Part shown: positions 10,611-54,833 of the stretch, in pieces
How the letters are laid out: every line of letters starts with the position of its first letter
Position numbering within the stretch: position 1 is the stretch's first letter
NCBI GenBank assembly: GCA_021299855.1
Contig: JAJTEY010000007.1
Coordinates: 1 to 60,401, forward strand
Direction: 5' to 3'
From: Bacteroidota bacterium
Lineage (GTDB): Bacteria > Bacteroidota > Bacteroidia > Palsa-965
DNA length: 60,401 bases
Made by a program: the position numbers and the translations under genes
The notes under the pieces: generated by a model
What the model saw: only the letters and a program-made list of their open reading frames with translations
Databases searched by the model: none
What the model was told of the DNA's origin: nothing

Positions 10611-11234
10611 ATGCCCTTGGCTCAGACACTACATCCGGACACGTCGTCCTGCATTTACATCTGGAACGTATCCGAACCATCGGAAGAACTTGCTGAACAT
10701 GAAGCACTTGCAGGTAAAGTGATTTCGCCGGGTAACGAGTACAGTGCAGAACATCGACTCCAACATTATTATTTGCAGCGAATATTGGTTGAACAGCATT
10801 TTCCCGGTGTTACTTTGAATTACAACGCAAGTCGTAAGCCAATATTAACTAATGGACAACACGTTAGTTTTACACATTCCGGTAAATATTTCGGAGCATA
10901 TTTCAGCCATTCGTTATGCGGAATTGATATCGAACTCAGTAATTCGAAAGCACTGAAGGTTTTAAGAAAGTTTTTAAAAGACGACGAAATCATCTATTGC
11001 GAAAAATGGACAGAAGAGCTCGCGTTGAAAATGTGGTGCATTAAAGAATCTTCATTTAAAGTTGTGGGGCGTGAAGACATGTTTCTAAAGAGTCATATTT
11101 TCGTAAAAGAACTTCCGGTGCACGATGAAGGGATTGTCCCGGTAGTGATTGATAGTAATGCCGGTTTTCTGAAACGAGATGTTCGCTTTATGCTTAATAA
11201 TGATTATTGCTTAGCTTATACTTTGCCTGTATGA
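10611..11234 (+). CDS. 4'-phosphopantetheinyl transferase family protein
   Basis: A 207-residue cytosolic enzyme of the Sfp/AcpS superfamily, which moves 4'-phosphopantetheine from CoA to a serine of carrier proteins. The family signatures are present: CGIDIE (Mg-binding acidic pair) about residue 105 and MWCIKESSFK about residue 144. The length suits the Sfp-like two-lobe type rather than the ~120-residue AcpS. Its target is not evident, since no carrier-protein gene lies nearby. It is the first of five overlapping genes; its TGA overlaps the next ATG (ATGA). TATTTTG just upstream of the ATG is one base shorter than a consensus -7 element. Confidence 0.88.
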   Translation: MPLAQTLHPDTSSCIYIWNVSEPSEELAEHEALAGKVISPGNEYSAEHRLQHYYLQRILVEQHFPGVTLNYNASRKPILTNGQHVSFTHSGKYFGAYFSHSLCGIDIELSNSKALKVLRKFLKDDEIIYCEKWTEELALKMWCIKESSFKVVGREDMFLKSHIFVKELPVHDEGIVPVVIDSNAGFLKRDVRFMLNNDYCLAYTLPV

Positions 11235-11959
11235 TTTACGAAGAGATACTCAAAGCGAAAAAACAGCAGCGAAAGCAACTTTTTGTACTCGTAGATCCGG
11301 ACAAAACAGGGCATCTTGAAAATATCTTGCAGCAGCCTGAACACGAGCTACCTGACGCTTTTCTTGTTGGGGGTACGTTGCTGGAGGAAAACAACACCCA
11401 AGCAGTTGTTGAGTTTATAAAAAAAGCATGTCGCAAGCCGGTGATTTTGTTTCCGGGCAATCCTTCACAGCTGTGCAGTAATGCAGATGGTTTATTGTTG
11501 CTGAGTTTAATCTCGGGACGCAATCCTGAATTATTGATAGGTCAACATGTTTTAGCGGCACCTCTAATTCACAAGTCAAAATTAGAGGTGATTAGTGTTG
11601 GATACATTTTGATGGATAGTGGGAAACCAACTGCGGTAAGCTACATGAGTAATACCGTTCCGATTCCGGCAGACAAACCCCAGATTGCAGCAGCAACAGC
11701 ATTAGCAGGGACGCAACTTGGACTTAAGTGTATTTATCTGGAAGGCGGAAGTGGTGGTCAACAACATCCGAGTACTGAAGTAATAAAAGCTGTGCGCGCC
11801 TTCATTGATACTCCTTTGTTAGTAGGTGGTGGAATTACAACACCGGAACAAGCTCGAAATATTTGCAAGGCCGGTGCGGACATATTAGTTGGCGGAACTA
11901 TATTTGAACACGAACCAAATTTGGTTGCTGAATTTATTCGCGCGATTCGACCATTATGA
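11231..11959 (+). CDS. Geranylgeranylglyceryl/heptaprenylglyceryl phosphate synthase family protein
   Basis: A 242-residue TIM-barrel prenyltransferase of the GGGPS/PcrB family, which joins a polyprenyl diphosphate to sn-glycerol-1-phosphate. Seen: FVLVDPDKTG (catalytic Asp/Mg region), DAFLVGGTLLEENN, VILFPGNPSQL, YLEGGSGG and LLVGGGITTPEQA, the last two forming the phosphate site. Homologues are known in Bacteroidota and belong to the group II enzymes; prenyl chain length cannot be read here. ATG at 11231 overlaps the upstream stop by four bases, favouring this start over the in-frame ATG at 11207. It lies inside a five-gene operon. The product's fate in this organism is unknown. Confidence 0.9.
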   Translation: MIYEEILKAKKQQRKQLFVLVDPDKTGHLENILQQPEHELPDAFLVGGTLLEENNTQAVVEFIKKACRKPVILFPGNPSQLCSNADGLLLLSLISGRNPELLIGQHVLAAPLIHKSKLEVISVGYILMDSGKPTAVSYMSNTVPIPADKPQIAAATALAGTQLGLKCIYLEGGSGGQQHPSTEVIKAVRAFIDTPLLVGGGITTPEQARNICKAGADILVGGTIFEHEPNLVAEFIRAIRPL

Positions 11960-12585
11960 AACTTATTGTGATTTCATCCTCCAAACCTGTTCCTGAAGAG
12001 ACGACTATCGTGACGTCGCTTTTTGAACATGGGCTGGAAATTTTTCATCTGAGAAAGCCCAAGATGCGGACGCGTGAGATGGAAGATTTTATCAAAGCAA
12101 TACCGGCTCACTTTCGCGATAGAATCGTCATTCACAGTCATCACAAGCTTGCAAGAAAGTACAATTTAGGCGGCATACACATTACACGAACACATCGAAA
12201 AAGAAAGTGGAGTACCTGGTGGAACAAGCGATCATTAAAACTTAAAAATCCTTCAGCATTAATTACTACTTCATTTCACAAACTGGCTTCGTTATATGAA
12301 AATAAGGAAGCCTACAGTTATGCGTTTTTGGGAAATATTTACGATGGTATTAGCGGTAATTACGGAGCCGGATTTAATCATCACAGTCTTCAATCAGCGT
12401 TGCAGCGCGCGGGCATTCCCATTGTTGCGCGAGGCGGAACAAATCTGGAAAATGCAACAACATCACAAGCATTAGGATTTACGGGTATAGCTTTATACGG
12501 GACCATATGGAAGTCAAGTAATCCATTACTTACGTTTCTTACTATTAAAGAAAAGTTGGCCGAAAATCCTTCTACACCTGTATGA
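11956..12585 (+). CDS. Thiamine phosphate synthase family protein (ThiE/TenI-like)
   Basis: A 209-residue TIM-barrel protein of the ThiE/TenI family. Matching segments are EIFHLRKPKM (ThiE has QLR-K), GGIHITRTH, YAFLGNIYDGISG and IPIVARGGTNLENA with GFTGIALYGTIW. ThiE joins the pyrimidine and thiazole phosphates to form thiamine phosphate. The usual Ser-Lys after the IFDS motif is not evident here (DGISGNYGAGF), so true ThiE activity is less certain than family membership. A TPP riboswitch 1.1 kb downstream fits a thiamine role. It overlaps both neighbours by ATGA, so translation is probably coupled. Confidence 0.75.
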   Translation: MKLIVISSSKPVPEETTIVTSLFEHGLEIFHLRKPKMRTREMEDFIKAIPAHFRDRIVIHSHHKLARKYNLGGIHITRTHRKRKWSTWWNKRSLKLKNPSALITTSFHKLASLYENKEAYSYAFLGNIYDGISGNYGAGFNHHSLQSALQRAGIPIVARGGTNLENATTSQALGFTGIALYGTIWKSSNPLLTFLTIKEKLAENPSTPV

Positions 12586-13187
12586 TTACAGAAGTCGTAT
12601 TGGATACAGTGCGTCACACCAGCGTATGGTCGTGGATTTCAACGCTGAGTTCAATTTTATACATCGTTGGAGCTTCTCGCGGCAAAGCGTGGTGCTGGCC
12701 GGCAGGAATTACAGGTAGTGCAACCGCCATGTTAGAATACTATTTCCAGGGATTACCGGCAGAGAGTGTGCTGAACGGAATTTATGTGATACTTGGGTTT
12801 TCCGGCTGGTACATGTGGCTCCAACAAGATCAAGCGAGCAAAAATGTTTTCATCGTAAGAACCCTAAACGGCAGCCAACTTCAATTGTCACTGGTCATTT
12901 CATTATGCGGTGGATTTACGTTAGGCTTCTTTAGTTCCACGTACAACTGGAGTAACTATCCGTATATCGATAGTATCCTCGCCGTAAGTTCGGTGGTTGC
13001 GACTTGGCTAACGACAAAACGTTTTATTGAGAACTGGATTTTCTGGATCATCATTGATGTCGCATCTGTGATGTTGTACATGCATAAAGGGTCCGAAATG
13101 TATTTGTTCGCCATATTATTTTTCATCTTTACCGTTCTTAGTGTTACGGGACTGCTTTCATGGAAACGACAACTATCAAACGCATAG
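12582..13187 (+). CDS. PnuC-family vitamin transporter (nicotinamide riboside or thiamine)
   Basis: A 201-residue inner-membrane protein with about seven hydrophobic segments. Family features: WCWPAGITGSATAM, a GFSGWYMW segment, and ENWIFWIIIDVASVMLYM near the C-terminus. PnuC members carry nicotinamide riboside by facilitated diffusion with trapping by a kinase; the relative PnuT carries thiamine and is often under TPP riboswitches. The context points both ways: a NadR-type kinase overlaps the 3' end, but a ThiE-like gene precedes it and a TPP riboswitch follows. I leave the substrate open. It overlaps the upstream gene by four bases and the downstream gene by 28. Confidence 0.85.
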   Translation: MITEVVLDTVRHTSVWSWISTLSSILYIVGASRGKAWCWPAGITGSATAMLEYYFQGLPAESVLNGIYVILGFSGWYMWLQQDQASKNVFIVRTLNGSQLQLSLVISLCGGFTLGFFSSTYNWSNYPYIDSILAVSSVVATWLTTKRFIENWIFWIIIDVASVMLYMHKGSEMYLFAILFFIFTVLSVTGLLSWKRQLSNA

Positions 13188-13696
13188 CATTAATTGGAGC
13201 GGAAAGCACCGGCAAAACTACGTTGTGTCGTTCTCTTGCTATGTGTTACAATACACTGTGGGTTCCGGAGTATGCGCGAGAGTTCGTTGCAGGCAGTAGT
13301 AAGGAAACTTCACTTGATGATATCGTTACCATTGCACACAAGCAACTAGAACATGAAAATGAATTAGCCGCACTTGCGAATAAACTTTTGTTTGTAGACA
13401 CTGAATTTATTCTCGCGAAAGTGTGGTGTGAAGACATTTACGGTAATGTTCCGACATGGATTGAAGAGCGAATTTCGACACACCAATATGATTTGTATTT
13501 ATTAACGAATAATGATTTGCCTTGGGTGCCTGACCCGGTGCGCGTTAATCCACAACGTCGTGATTACTTTTATCAGCTCTACCTTAAAGAACTTACGAAT
13601 CGTCAATTGCCTTTTGAAATAATTAGCGGGCGTTACGAAATGAGACTTTATAATGCTACTCAGGCATTGCAAAAACATTTTCCCGATTTAAGTTAA
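13160..13696 (+). CDS. NadR-type ATPase/kinase (ribosylnicotinamide kinase-like)
   Basis: A 178-residue cytosolic P-loop protein. Walker A is GAESTGKTTL at residues ~13-22, followed by VPEYAREF and LLFVDTEF, as in the C-terminal kinase domain of NadR, which phosphorylates nicotinamide riboside to NMN. The adenylyltransferase and HTH domains of full NadR are absent, so this is a stand-alone kinase domain. The gene starts inside the PnuC gene (28-base overlap), the usual partner for trapping an imported riboside. If that transporter moves thiamine instead, the kinase could act on another vitamin (inference). The promoter of the following riboswitch lies at its 3' end. Confidence 0.8.
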   Translation: METTTIKRIALIGAESTGKTTLCRSLAMCYNTLWVPEYAREFVAGSSKETSLDDIVTIAHKQLEHENELAALANKLLFVDTEFILAKVWCEDIYGNVPTWIEERISTHQYDLYLLTNNDLPWVPDPVRVNPQRRDYFYQLYLKELTNRQLPFEIISGRYEMRLYNATQALQKHFPDLS

Positions 13697-13710
13697 TTCC
13701 TATACCTTTG
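13678..13710 (+). promoter_or_regulatory. Promoter of the TPP-riboswitch transcript
   Basis: TACCTTTG at 13703-13710 matches TAnnTTTG. TTTTC at 13678-13682, 20 bases upstream, is a weak -33 element (TTTTG expected). The start near 13715 coincides with the 5' strand of riboswitch helix P1. Confidence 0.55.
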
Positions 13711-13714
13711 CGCT

Positions 13715-13831
13715 GATCCAAAGGGGTGTCTTGTGTTTACACGAGGCTGAGATCATACCCGGTTCATGATTGTTCCAAACACAATGATGAACACACCTGA
13801 ACAAGATAATGCTTGCGTAGGGACCAGGATC
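13715..13831 (+). promoter_or_regulatory. TPP riboswitch aptamer (THI element)
   Basis: The conserved THI-box blocks appear in order: AGGGGTG (13721-13727), GGCTGAGATCATACCC (13745-13760), ACCTGAACAAGATAATG (13795-13811) and GCGTAGGGA (13815-13823). Helix P1 is GATCC (13715-13719) with GGATC (13827-13831). P3 is longer than in E. coli thiM, containing the ATTGTTCC...AACACAAT region. It precedes a TonB-dependent receptor, a known arrangement for thiamine uptake in this phylum. The expression platform is listed separately. Confidence 0.95.
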
Positions 13832-13888
13832 GGAACATGAAACGATGCATCCCTTGTCGCGGAATGTCCGATCCACAAAAAGGACAAA
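13827..13888 (+). promoter_or_regulatory. Expression platform of the TPP riboswitch
   Basis: The 3' strand of P1 (GGATC, 13827-13831) is also the start of an 11-bp anti-P1 helix: GGATCGG with a bulged A then ACAT (13827-13838) pairs with ATGTCCGATCC (13864-13874). A third helix, TGTCC (13865-13869) with GGACA (13882-13886), would cover the Shine-Dalgarno AGGA (13881-13884) four bases before the ATG. It excludes the anti-P1 helix. With TPP bound, P1 forms, anti-P1 is lost and the ribosome site is closed; without TPP it is open. Read by eye; energies were not calculated. Confidence 0.75.
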
Positions 13889-16297
13889 ATGAAAAAAACA
13901 GTAGTAGCGAGTTTTTTAACTCTGTTTGCCTGCACAACAATTGCAGCACAACAACTTCAACTTCGCGGCACGCTTAAAGATGCCACAACGAAGGAACCAT
14001 TGGCTTTCGCAATCATCAAACAAGCGGGAAGCTTCACACAAACACAAACTGATTTCGCCGGCAATTTTGTTTGGGAAATTAAATCTGATTCTACCGAAAA
14101 AACAATTTGCCTGATACCGTTGGTAATGGGTTATCGTCGGGACACGCTTTGTTTTGATAAGGTAAATACGCTTGACATTTTCCTGGAACGCGAAGCATAC
14201 ATGAAAGAAGAAGTGTTGATTACTGCAACACGTGCGAATGAGAAATCCGGCATGGCGTATTCTGAAATAGGTAGAGCTGATATTGCAAAGCAAAACACCG
14301 GTCGTGATATTCCGTTTCTGCTGAACACTATGCCATCGGTGGTGACAACTTCTGATGCCGGCAATGGTGTTGGTTATACCGGCATTACCATTCGAGGAAC
14401 GGATGCTACGCGAATTAATGTCAGCATTAACGGAATTCCACTTAACGATGCGGAATCGCAAGGTGTATTTTGGGTAAATATGCCCGACTTCGTTTCGTCC
14501 ACTGATAATATTCAGGTGCAGCGTGGCGTAGGAACTTCAGTAAACGGTGCAGGTTCTTTCGGAGGAACAATTAATCTGCAAACCGACCAAATTAATAACC
14601 GCGCTTACGGTGAGATAATCGGTTCGGCGGGATCATTTAACACGTGGAGAACAACTGCAAAAGCGGGTACAGGTTTAATCAATAATCGGTTTGCATTCGA
14701 TCTTCGTTTGTCCCGATTGAACTCCGATGGTTTTATCGATCGCGCTTCTTCCGATTTGAGAAGTTGGTACGCTTCCGGCGTGTATGTAACAGAAAAATCC
14801 TTGCTTCGTTTTACCGCGTTCTCAGGTCGTGAGCGCACCTATCAGGCGTGGTATGGAGTTCCTGAAGATTCTATCAAAGCAGGCAACGTTACTTTCAATC
14901 CTGCAGGGATATATTTTGACGAAAACGGACAATTGCAGTATTACCAAGGTGAGACGGACAACTATCAGCAAGATCATTATCAGTTGCAGTTTATTCATCG
15001 CATTAACAACAGATGGAATTTTAACGCTGCATTGCACGCCACAAAAGGCCGCGGCTATTATGAACAATTTAAAGAAGATGCCAATCTGGGAGCATATGGA
15101 TTTACGGATTCGCTTTCACTTGCAACTCCAACAGATTTAATTAGACAGTTATGGTTGGATAATTGGTATTACGGAGGAACATGGAATGTCGCCTACAACA
15201 GCGCTAAAAAAATAAAAATAACGATTGGTGGTGCGGCAAGTACATACAGCGGAGATCATTACGGAACTATTGTATGGTCGCGCTATCTGCCACCGGCGGC
15301 ATTAATTAATCCTGAGTTTTACTTTAACACCGCTACGAAATCAGAAGCGAATATGTATGGCAAAATGAACTATCAACTCAATAATAAATTCAATTTATTT
15401 ATTGATGGGCAATATCGCTATGTGAATTATGCATTTGAAGGAATTAACATCTTGGGAGAATCATTGCCACAAGAAGTAACGATGCATTTCTTTAATCCGA
15501 AAGCAGGATTGACATATGAAATCAACGATGCGCAACAAACATATGCCTCGTTTAGTGTTGGCAATAAGGAACCGAACAGAAATGATTTTACAGATAGTCC
15601 GCCTGAAAATCGTCCGGTACACGAAACTGTTTATGACACCGAATTGGGATGGCGGTATAGAAAAAATAAATTATTCGCCGGAGTTAACTTGTACAATATG
15701 CAGTACAAGAACCAATTAATATTGACCGGAAAAATTAATGATGTAGGCGCATACACGCGACAGAATGTGCCGGTTAGTTTCCGCAGAGGGATTGAAGTTG
15801 AAGGCGGCTATCAACCATTTACTTCATTATCAATCGTTGGTAATTTGACATACAGCAATAACTTCATTCCACGATTTGTGGAGTACATTGATAATTACGA
15901 CACAAGTACTCAAGATTCTATCGTTTACAACAACGCACCAATAGCGTTATCACCAAATATCATAAGCGCGGTTACGATTACGTACAATTACAAGAAAGTG
16001 ATCGAAACCGGATTTATCGTAAAACATGTTGGGCGACAATTCCTGGACAATACCGGACAAGAATCGAGGAGTATTGATCCATACACTATACTTGATTACA
16101 GATTCACGTGGCACATTCCGACAAAATCGATGCAAAACTTATCTGTAAGTGCGTTTGTGTATAATGTATTGGACCTGCGGTATAACGCTAACGGATATAC
16201 TTACGGATGGATTGCCGGCGGTGCGGAAGAACGTTACAACTTCTTCTATCCGCAAGCAGGAAGAAACTTTATGATAATGCTGAATGCGAAATTCTGA
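13889..16297 (+). CDS. TonB-dependent receptor under TPP riboswitch, probable thiamine importer
   Basis: An outer-membrane receptor of 802 residues. It has a signal peptide (MKKTVVASFLTLFACTTIAA), a carboxypeptidase-regulatory-like domain (LRGTLKDATTKEPLAF), a plug (GRDIPFLLNTMPSVVTTSDA, ITIRGTDATRINVSINGIP, GVGTSVNGAGSFGG) and a 22-strand-type barrel that ends NFMIMLNAKF with a terminal Phe. The TPP riboswitch in its leader makes thiamine or a thiamine precursor the likely substrate; such receptors are known members of the THI regulon in Bacteroidota. The inner-membrane step may be the PnuC-family protein upstream. It ends directly against the stop of the convergent LRR gene. Confidence 0.9.
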   Translation: MKKTVVASFLTLFACTTIAAQQLQLRGTLKDATTKEPLAFAIIKQAGSFTQTQTDFAGNFVWEIKSDSTEKTICLIPLVMGYRRDTLCFDKVNTLDIFLEREAYMKEEVLITATRANEKSGMAYSEIGRADIAKQNTGRDIPFLLNTMPSVVTTSDAGNGVGYTGITIRGTDATRINVSINGIPLNDAESQGVFWVNMPDFVSSTDNIQVQRGVGTSVNGAGSFGGTINLQTDQINNRAYGEIIGSAGSFNTWRTTAKAGTGLINNRFAFDLRLSRLNSDGFIDRASSDLRSWYASGVYVTEKSLLRFTAFSGRERTYQAWYGVPEDSIKAGNVTFNPAGIYFDENGQLQYYQGETDNYQQDHYQLQFIHRINNRWNFNAALHATKGRGYYEQFKEDANLGAYGFTDSLSLATPTDLIRQLWLDNWYYGGTWNVAYNSAKKIKITIGGAASTYSGDHYGTIVWSRYLPPAALINPEFYFNTATKSEANMYGKMNYQLNNKFNLFIDGQYRYVNYAFEGINILGESLPQEVTMHFFNPKAGLTYEINDAQQTYASFSVGNKEPNRNDFTDSPPENRPVHETVYDTELGWRYRKNKLFAGVNLYNMQYKNQLILTGKINDVGAYTRQNVPVSFRRGIEVEGGYQPFTSLSIVGNLTYSNNFIPRFVEYIDNYDTSTQDSIVYNNAPIALSPNIISAVTITYNYKKVIETGFIVKHVGRQFLDNTGQESRSIDPYTILDYRFTWHIPTKSMQNLSVSAFVYNVLDLRYNANGYTYGWIAGGAEERYNFFYPQAGRNFMIMLNAKF

Positions 16298-54759: not shown

Positions 54760-54833
54760 TCGGGGTGGCGGGACTCGAACCCACGACCCCCAGCACCCCA
54801 TGCTGGTACGCTAGCCAACTGCGCTACACCCCG
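54760..54833 (-). tRNA. tRNA-Pro (anticodon GGG)
   Basis: A complete 74-base cloverleaf on the minus strand. Acceptor stem CGGGGTG / CACCCCG with discriminator A; D arm with AGTTGGCTAG; anticodon stem CCAGC / GCTGG around loop ATGGGGT, so T33, anticodon GGG and G37; T arm GTGGGTTCGAGTCCCGC. CCA is not encoded. It stands alone between two outer-membrane protein genes. Confidence 0.96.

Follow-up and report, generated by a model that had tools for sequence, protein, structure and literature searches.

A TPP riboswitch with an additional J2/4 hairpin and putative competitors for its P1 and P2 strands precedes a TonB-dependent receptor gene in a Bacteroidota bacterium

The TPP riboswitch (Rfam RF00059, THI element) is built on a P1–P5 core with CUGAGA and GCGUAGGGA motifs, and the leader described here shares this core, both motifs and a position 5' of a thiamine-type transport gene. 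The consensus of Barrick and Breaker includes an optional P3a between the CUGAGA motif and the P2 3' strand, and the accessible text of that work mentions no J2/4 helix (PMC2258182); the present leader differs in carrying a 34-nt hairpin in J2/4. In the translational E. coli thiM riboswitch the aptamer forms first and subsequently rearranges into a rival conformation with a mispaired P1 (PMC3280964). The course proposed below is similar, except that the competitor is directed at the P2 5' strand as well and that there is no clear dependence on a Shine–Dalgarno (SD) sequence. The Bacteroides OMthi and pnuT TPP riboswitches share riboswitch class, receptor type and phylum with the present one. 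In the accessible portion of the report on these, however, the authors leave the mechanism of TPP riboswitches in Bacteroidota open and term it uncertain, and neither a J2/4 hairpin nor a P2 5' complement is mentioned there (PMC5613172), the papers compared here being open-access ones.

The window analysed is a stretch of 60,401 nucleotides from a Bacteroidota bacterium. On its forward strand the TPP aptamer occupies positions 13715–13831, 5' of a gene (13889–16297, +) for a TonB-dependent receptor of 802 amino acids (Pfam PF00593 and PF07715). A local search of 401 nt recovered a full-length RF00059 match (model positions 1–105) at 13712–13841, with 29.9 bits and E=4.6e-4. Since the bit score does not reach the gathering score of 54.3, which is a curated detection threshold and not a structural feature, the Rfam scan of the whole window at the gathering threshold returned no TPP riboswitch. 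The sole above-threshold Rfam match in the window is a tRNA gene at 54760–54833 (−). In the Rfam alignment and the fold, all five helices are present and the ligand-site motifs CTGAGATCATACCC, ACCTGA and GCGTAGGGA are intact. The P1 5' strand GATCC (13715–13719) is followed by P2 (13724–13727 with 13757–13760), P3 (13728–13735 with 13740–13747) and the CTGAGA T-loop motif within 13724–13760, by P4 and P5 with ACCTGA ... GCGTAGGGA (13796–13821), and by the P1 3' strand GGATC (13827–13831). The free fold of the leader is more stable than expected (z=−3.4). As judged from these features, the aptamer would be expected to bind TPP. The first-pass annotation had called the aptamer clear; it is indeed present, but an additional hairpin in J2/4 had been overlooked. 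The P2 3' strand ACCC and ACCTGA are usually separated by 2–4 nt, whereas here the spacing is 34 nt and folds into a hairpin (13762–13767 with 13787–13792 and 13769–13773 with 13781–13785; loop TCCAAAC; z=−2.9 alone).

The genes adjoining the receptor gene are of thiamine type. Conserved ThiE/TenI-like, PnuC-like (PnuT-type) and NadR-like kinase genes lie upstream of the riboswitch at 11956–13696 (+), and the receptor together with its PnuC-like, ThiE/TenI-like and kinase neighbours was found in seven genomes, so that the aptamer stands, as is typical of TPP riboswitches, in the leader of a gene with a presumed thiamine-type substrate. On the basis of the riboswitch and the neighbouring genes, the receptor is likely to be of the thiamine type (OMthi/OMR1). 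Gene order at the orthologous locus is kept in the examined genomes of the genus and the family; a search at the level of the order, which contains only this family, added no further genomes. The conserved run immediately 5' of the riboswitch (10611–13696) comprises PPTase, PcrB-like, ThiE/TenI-like, PnuC-like and NadR-like kinase genes, and is possibly a thiamine salvage set that has no TPP riboswitch of its own in this genome. The genome searched is a bin of 2.08 Mb, 72% complete, in which this leader gave the one RF00059 match. Other members of the genus also carry the receptor-leader riboswitch only, apart from L006 (G003), where no close ortholog of the receptor is present and the TPP riboswitch is of the thiS type, lacking the J2/4 hairpin.

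GGATC at 13827–13831 had been proposed to be shared by P1 and an 11-bp anti-P1 helix with 13864–13874, and both pairings are found at precisely these positions. The anti-P1 hairpin (13827–13874, +) consists of 8 bp, a bulged A13835 and 3 bp (13827–13834 and 13836–13838 with 13864–13874). It is stronger than expected from dinucleotide shuffles (p=0.003) and provides the P1 3' strand with an alternative partner, as in thiM. Of six family relatives with this leader, four have similar hairpins, different in sequence, that overlap the P1 3' strand (L012, GAUCCGGAA/UUCCGGGUC; L009, GAUGGAA/UUCCGUC; L010, GAUUCAUGAU/AUCAUGAAUC; L008, GGUUUACA/UGUAAAUC); in the leaders of L007 and L011, P1 itself is not clear. 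In the wider Bacteroidota, anti-P1 strands of insert-type receptor leaders, that is those with a J2/4 insert, paired better with their own partners than with swapped ones (z=4.5 with n=28 in one set; z=2.7 with p=0.005 in another), in tests that remove relatedness only in part. When the leader was folded length by length, short transcripts adopted the aptamer, with a P1 probability of about 1.0 up to around 13850. Once 13874 had been transcribed, anti-P1 reached a probability of 1.0 and replaced P1 fully, and therefore some 43 nt of transcription after completion of P1 would be available for TPP to act. The free state reached at the end is 6 kcal/mol more stable than the one in which P1 is constrained.

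In the anti-P1 hairpin, the loop region suggests a second competitor. The pyrimidine-rich element GCATCCCTT (13847–13855, +) is the 9-nt complement of AAGGGGTGT (13721–13729, +), which covers J1/2, the P2 5' strand and the start of P3. The duplex is calculated at −12.0 kcal/mol, and on its own is marginal against dinucleotide shuffles (p=0.06). When transcripts end near 13860, this helix attains a probability of up to 0.85 and displaces P1. The same transient pairing appears on folding of L009 and not of L012, and L007, L008 and L011 have no clear CCCUU loop. When six segments of the aptamer were compared with shuffled leaders, only the P2 5' segment had an excess of complements among leaders from the class (t=7.3 for the insert type and 5.1 for leaders with no insert). 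The P4 3' strand AGGGA, considered as another partner for the pyrimidine loop, was rejected, since its complements were not in significant excess (t=1.75 and −1.1). The variable bases that precede GGGG co-vary with the leader, as in UGCUUUAGGGGUG/CAUUCCUGAAGCA and UAAUACAGGGGUG/UAUUCCUGUAUUA. To guard against inflation by P1, the swap test for this flank demanded three or more of the four G residues and trimmed the P1 3' strand; own partners then exceeded swapped partners with z=6.6 in thiS leaders and 8.3 in receptor leaders, and with z=5.3 when each flank was represented by a single receptor leader, relatedness again being controlled in part. A second receptor-leader set showed weaker covariation (z=2.6 for all leaders, 3.1 for those with no insert). 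Covariation was weak or absent in insert-type leaders (z=2.3; not significant in the second set), for which the case for the P2 5' competitor rests on the enrichment of complements. Once the anti-P1 hairpin is complete, pairing of its loop with the P2 5' strand would form a pseudoknot, which falls outside the scoring of the programs used.

In several thiS leaders (L006, L021–L024 and L043), the complement of the P2 5' strand (CATTCC...) is complementary to the start-codon region (GGAATG) as well, and inspection of L043 and L006 shows CAUUCC together with GGAAUG. Across the sets the signal for a match between this element and the start-codon region is modest (z=2.0 for thiS leaders and 4.8 for non-insert receptor leaders). 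These matches suggest direct masking of the start codon in thiS leaders by the P2-5'-complementary element.

How the competition would be conveyed to the receptor gene is less clear-cut. The first-pass annotation had drawn a three-helix switch, in which anti-P1 opposes P1 and, with TPP bound, TGTCC (13865–13869) sequesters GGACA (13882–13886) over the Shine–Dalgarno. Every helix of this scheme is present: the sequestering helix (13865–13886, +, over AAGGAC) lies where it was placed, is mutually exclusive with anti-P1 and forms when P1 is forced. L009 has a counterpart with changed sequence, UGUUCC/GGAAUA. However, pairing between the ribosome site and the upstream leader is not significant on its own against dinucleotide shuffles (p=0.09), and the compensatory changes seen for anti-P1 in four of six relatives were seen for the sequestering helix in one of six, the other family members that share the leader having no counterpart. 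Pairings of the ribosome site are in fact fewer than expected in insert-type leaders (z=−2.6), in which the change in accessibility between states was not significant. In the present leader, mean accessibility of 13878–13895 is 0.76 in the free fold and 0.71 with the aptamer and P1 forced. The two values are nearly equal because GGA is predicted to be paired in the TPP-free fold too, with the released P1 5' strand. That pairing, which spans a long range and closes a multiloop, is uncertain in its turn; when the leader was folded alone, the values were 0.07 paired versus 0.23. The annotation was right to expect weak SD use: none is apparent in the window, with SD-like sites at 3 of 39 ORFs versus 3 in a control stretch, an approximate count on automatic starts. 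In Bacteroidota generally, SD sequences are not used and structure near the start codon tunes initiation (PMC6847099). An OFF step at the ribosome site is plausible on this modelling, while the complete switch in its clean three-helix form appears doubtful.

We also considered that control might be transcriptional, through a terminator or Rho, and not translational. A Bacteroidota −7 promoter box, TACCTTTG (TAnnTTTG; 13703–13710, +), fits the published consensus (PMC7366714). Of 88 receptor-type leaders, 66 have the motif (mean of 1.8 in shuffles), in most cases 11–13 nt 5' of the P2 GGGG. From its position, transcription is predicted to start within a few nucleotides of 13714, so that the mRNA would begin at P1 and P1 would be short, about 5–6 bp. 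A second match in the genome to the promoter plus GGGGTG (C64) proved on inspection to contain no riboswitch. The hairpins of the leader are stable, and the thi biosynthesis operon of B. thetaiotaomicron responds to thiamine at the RNA level according to the accessible part of that report (PMC5613172), both of which would suit a transcriptional output. Against this, no intrinsic terminator follows the aptamer in 13650–14000, where the single terminator-like match lies upstream, within the promoter/P1 region, and the same part of the report describes B. thetaiotaomicron OMthi RNA, like pnuT RNA, as unresponsive to thiamine. The lack of a terminator after the aptamer and the unresponsive OMthi RNA favour an output at the level of translation, which may operate via structure near the start codon, and make transcriptional control unlikely.

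The low Rfam score is explained by the 34-nt insert in J2/4, which Rfam forces into the optional P3a slot. Among family relatives, insert carriers score 29–40 bits and insert-free riboswitches 66–72 bits. An insert is present in all family relatives with a receptor-leader riboswitch, with differing sequences, and is absent from the family's thiS-leader riboswitches. In a broader sample of the class, J2/4 length is bimodal, either 2–4 nt or 16–84 nt; inserts occur in none of 40 thiS leaders, in about one-third of receptor leaders and in one PnuC-like leader. The mean folding z of 54 inserts was −3.3. An alignment of 15 inserts had 78% of cells paired, as compared with 52% in shuffles, and 56 two-sided changes as compared with 25; neither value was equalled in any of 500 shuffles or by slid registers. 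The covariation score of the helix was 0.71 against 0.26 for shuffled sequences. These alignments were built automatically, and relatedness was partly controlled. Hairpins of 32–37 nt often have loops of the CCAAA/UCAAA type despite wholly different stems (13774–13780 here; L054, L155, L158, L159, L168, L176, L008 and L012), and it is possible that such loops dock in a tertiary contact. The J2/4 hairpin marks an aptamer subtype within the Bacteroidota TPP riboswitches that goes undetected at standard Rfam thresholds. In the class sample, 139 of 149 genomes have an RF00059 match at E<=0.01, which exceeds the cut-off in only 91, a gap due in part to inserts of this kind. That the riboswitch has decayed, its 29.9 bits against a cut-off of 54.3 and its P1 of just 5–7 bp reflecting lost function and its alternative helices chance, is very improbable, given the intact ligand-site motifs, an insertion that accounts for the score and is common to relatives and covarying, and the conservation of the locus in related genomes.

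Overall, we favour as probable a TPP-responsive kinetic OFF switch for the thiamine-type TonB-dependent receptor, in which the P1 and P2 strands would both be competed away when TPP is absent. Transcription would start at or beside a short P1, and the aptamer, with its J2/4 hairpin, would fold first. Binding of TPP would hold P1 and P2. In the absence of TPP, the downstream leader would form the anti-P1 hairpin and capture the P1 3' strand, while the pyrimidine-rich loop would claim the P2 5' strand: initially, with transcription still under way, in an ordinary helix, and at a later stage perhaps in a pseudoknot. This would dismantle the aptamer and allow expression of the receptor gene. Pairing of the freed 13864–13874 strand with GGAC near the start codon would be one possible translational output among others. 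Of the switch as originally drawn, the anti-P1 half stands and the sequestering half is weak; the main additions are the J2/4-hairpin subtype and, across the class, competition for the P2 5' strand.

Somewhat more tentatively, Bacteroidota TPP riboswitches may share a mode of switching that does not mask an SD sequence, in which competition for the P2 5' strand comes from an element further downstream, frequently the pyrimidine-rich loop of a hairpin, and may include a receptor-specific subtype with a J2/4 hairpin whose conserved CCAAA-type loop would make a tertiary contact. Competition for the P2 5' strand by a conserved, covarying element would offer a testable answer, applicable to many Bacteroidota genomes, to how TPP riboswitches act in a phylum without Shine–Dalgarno sequences.
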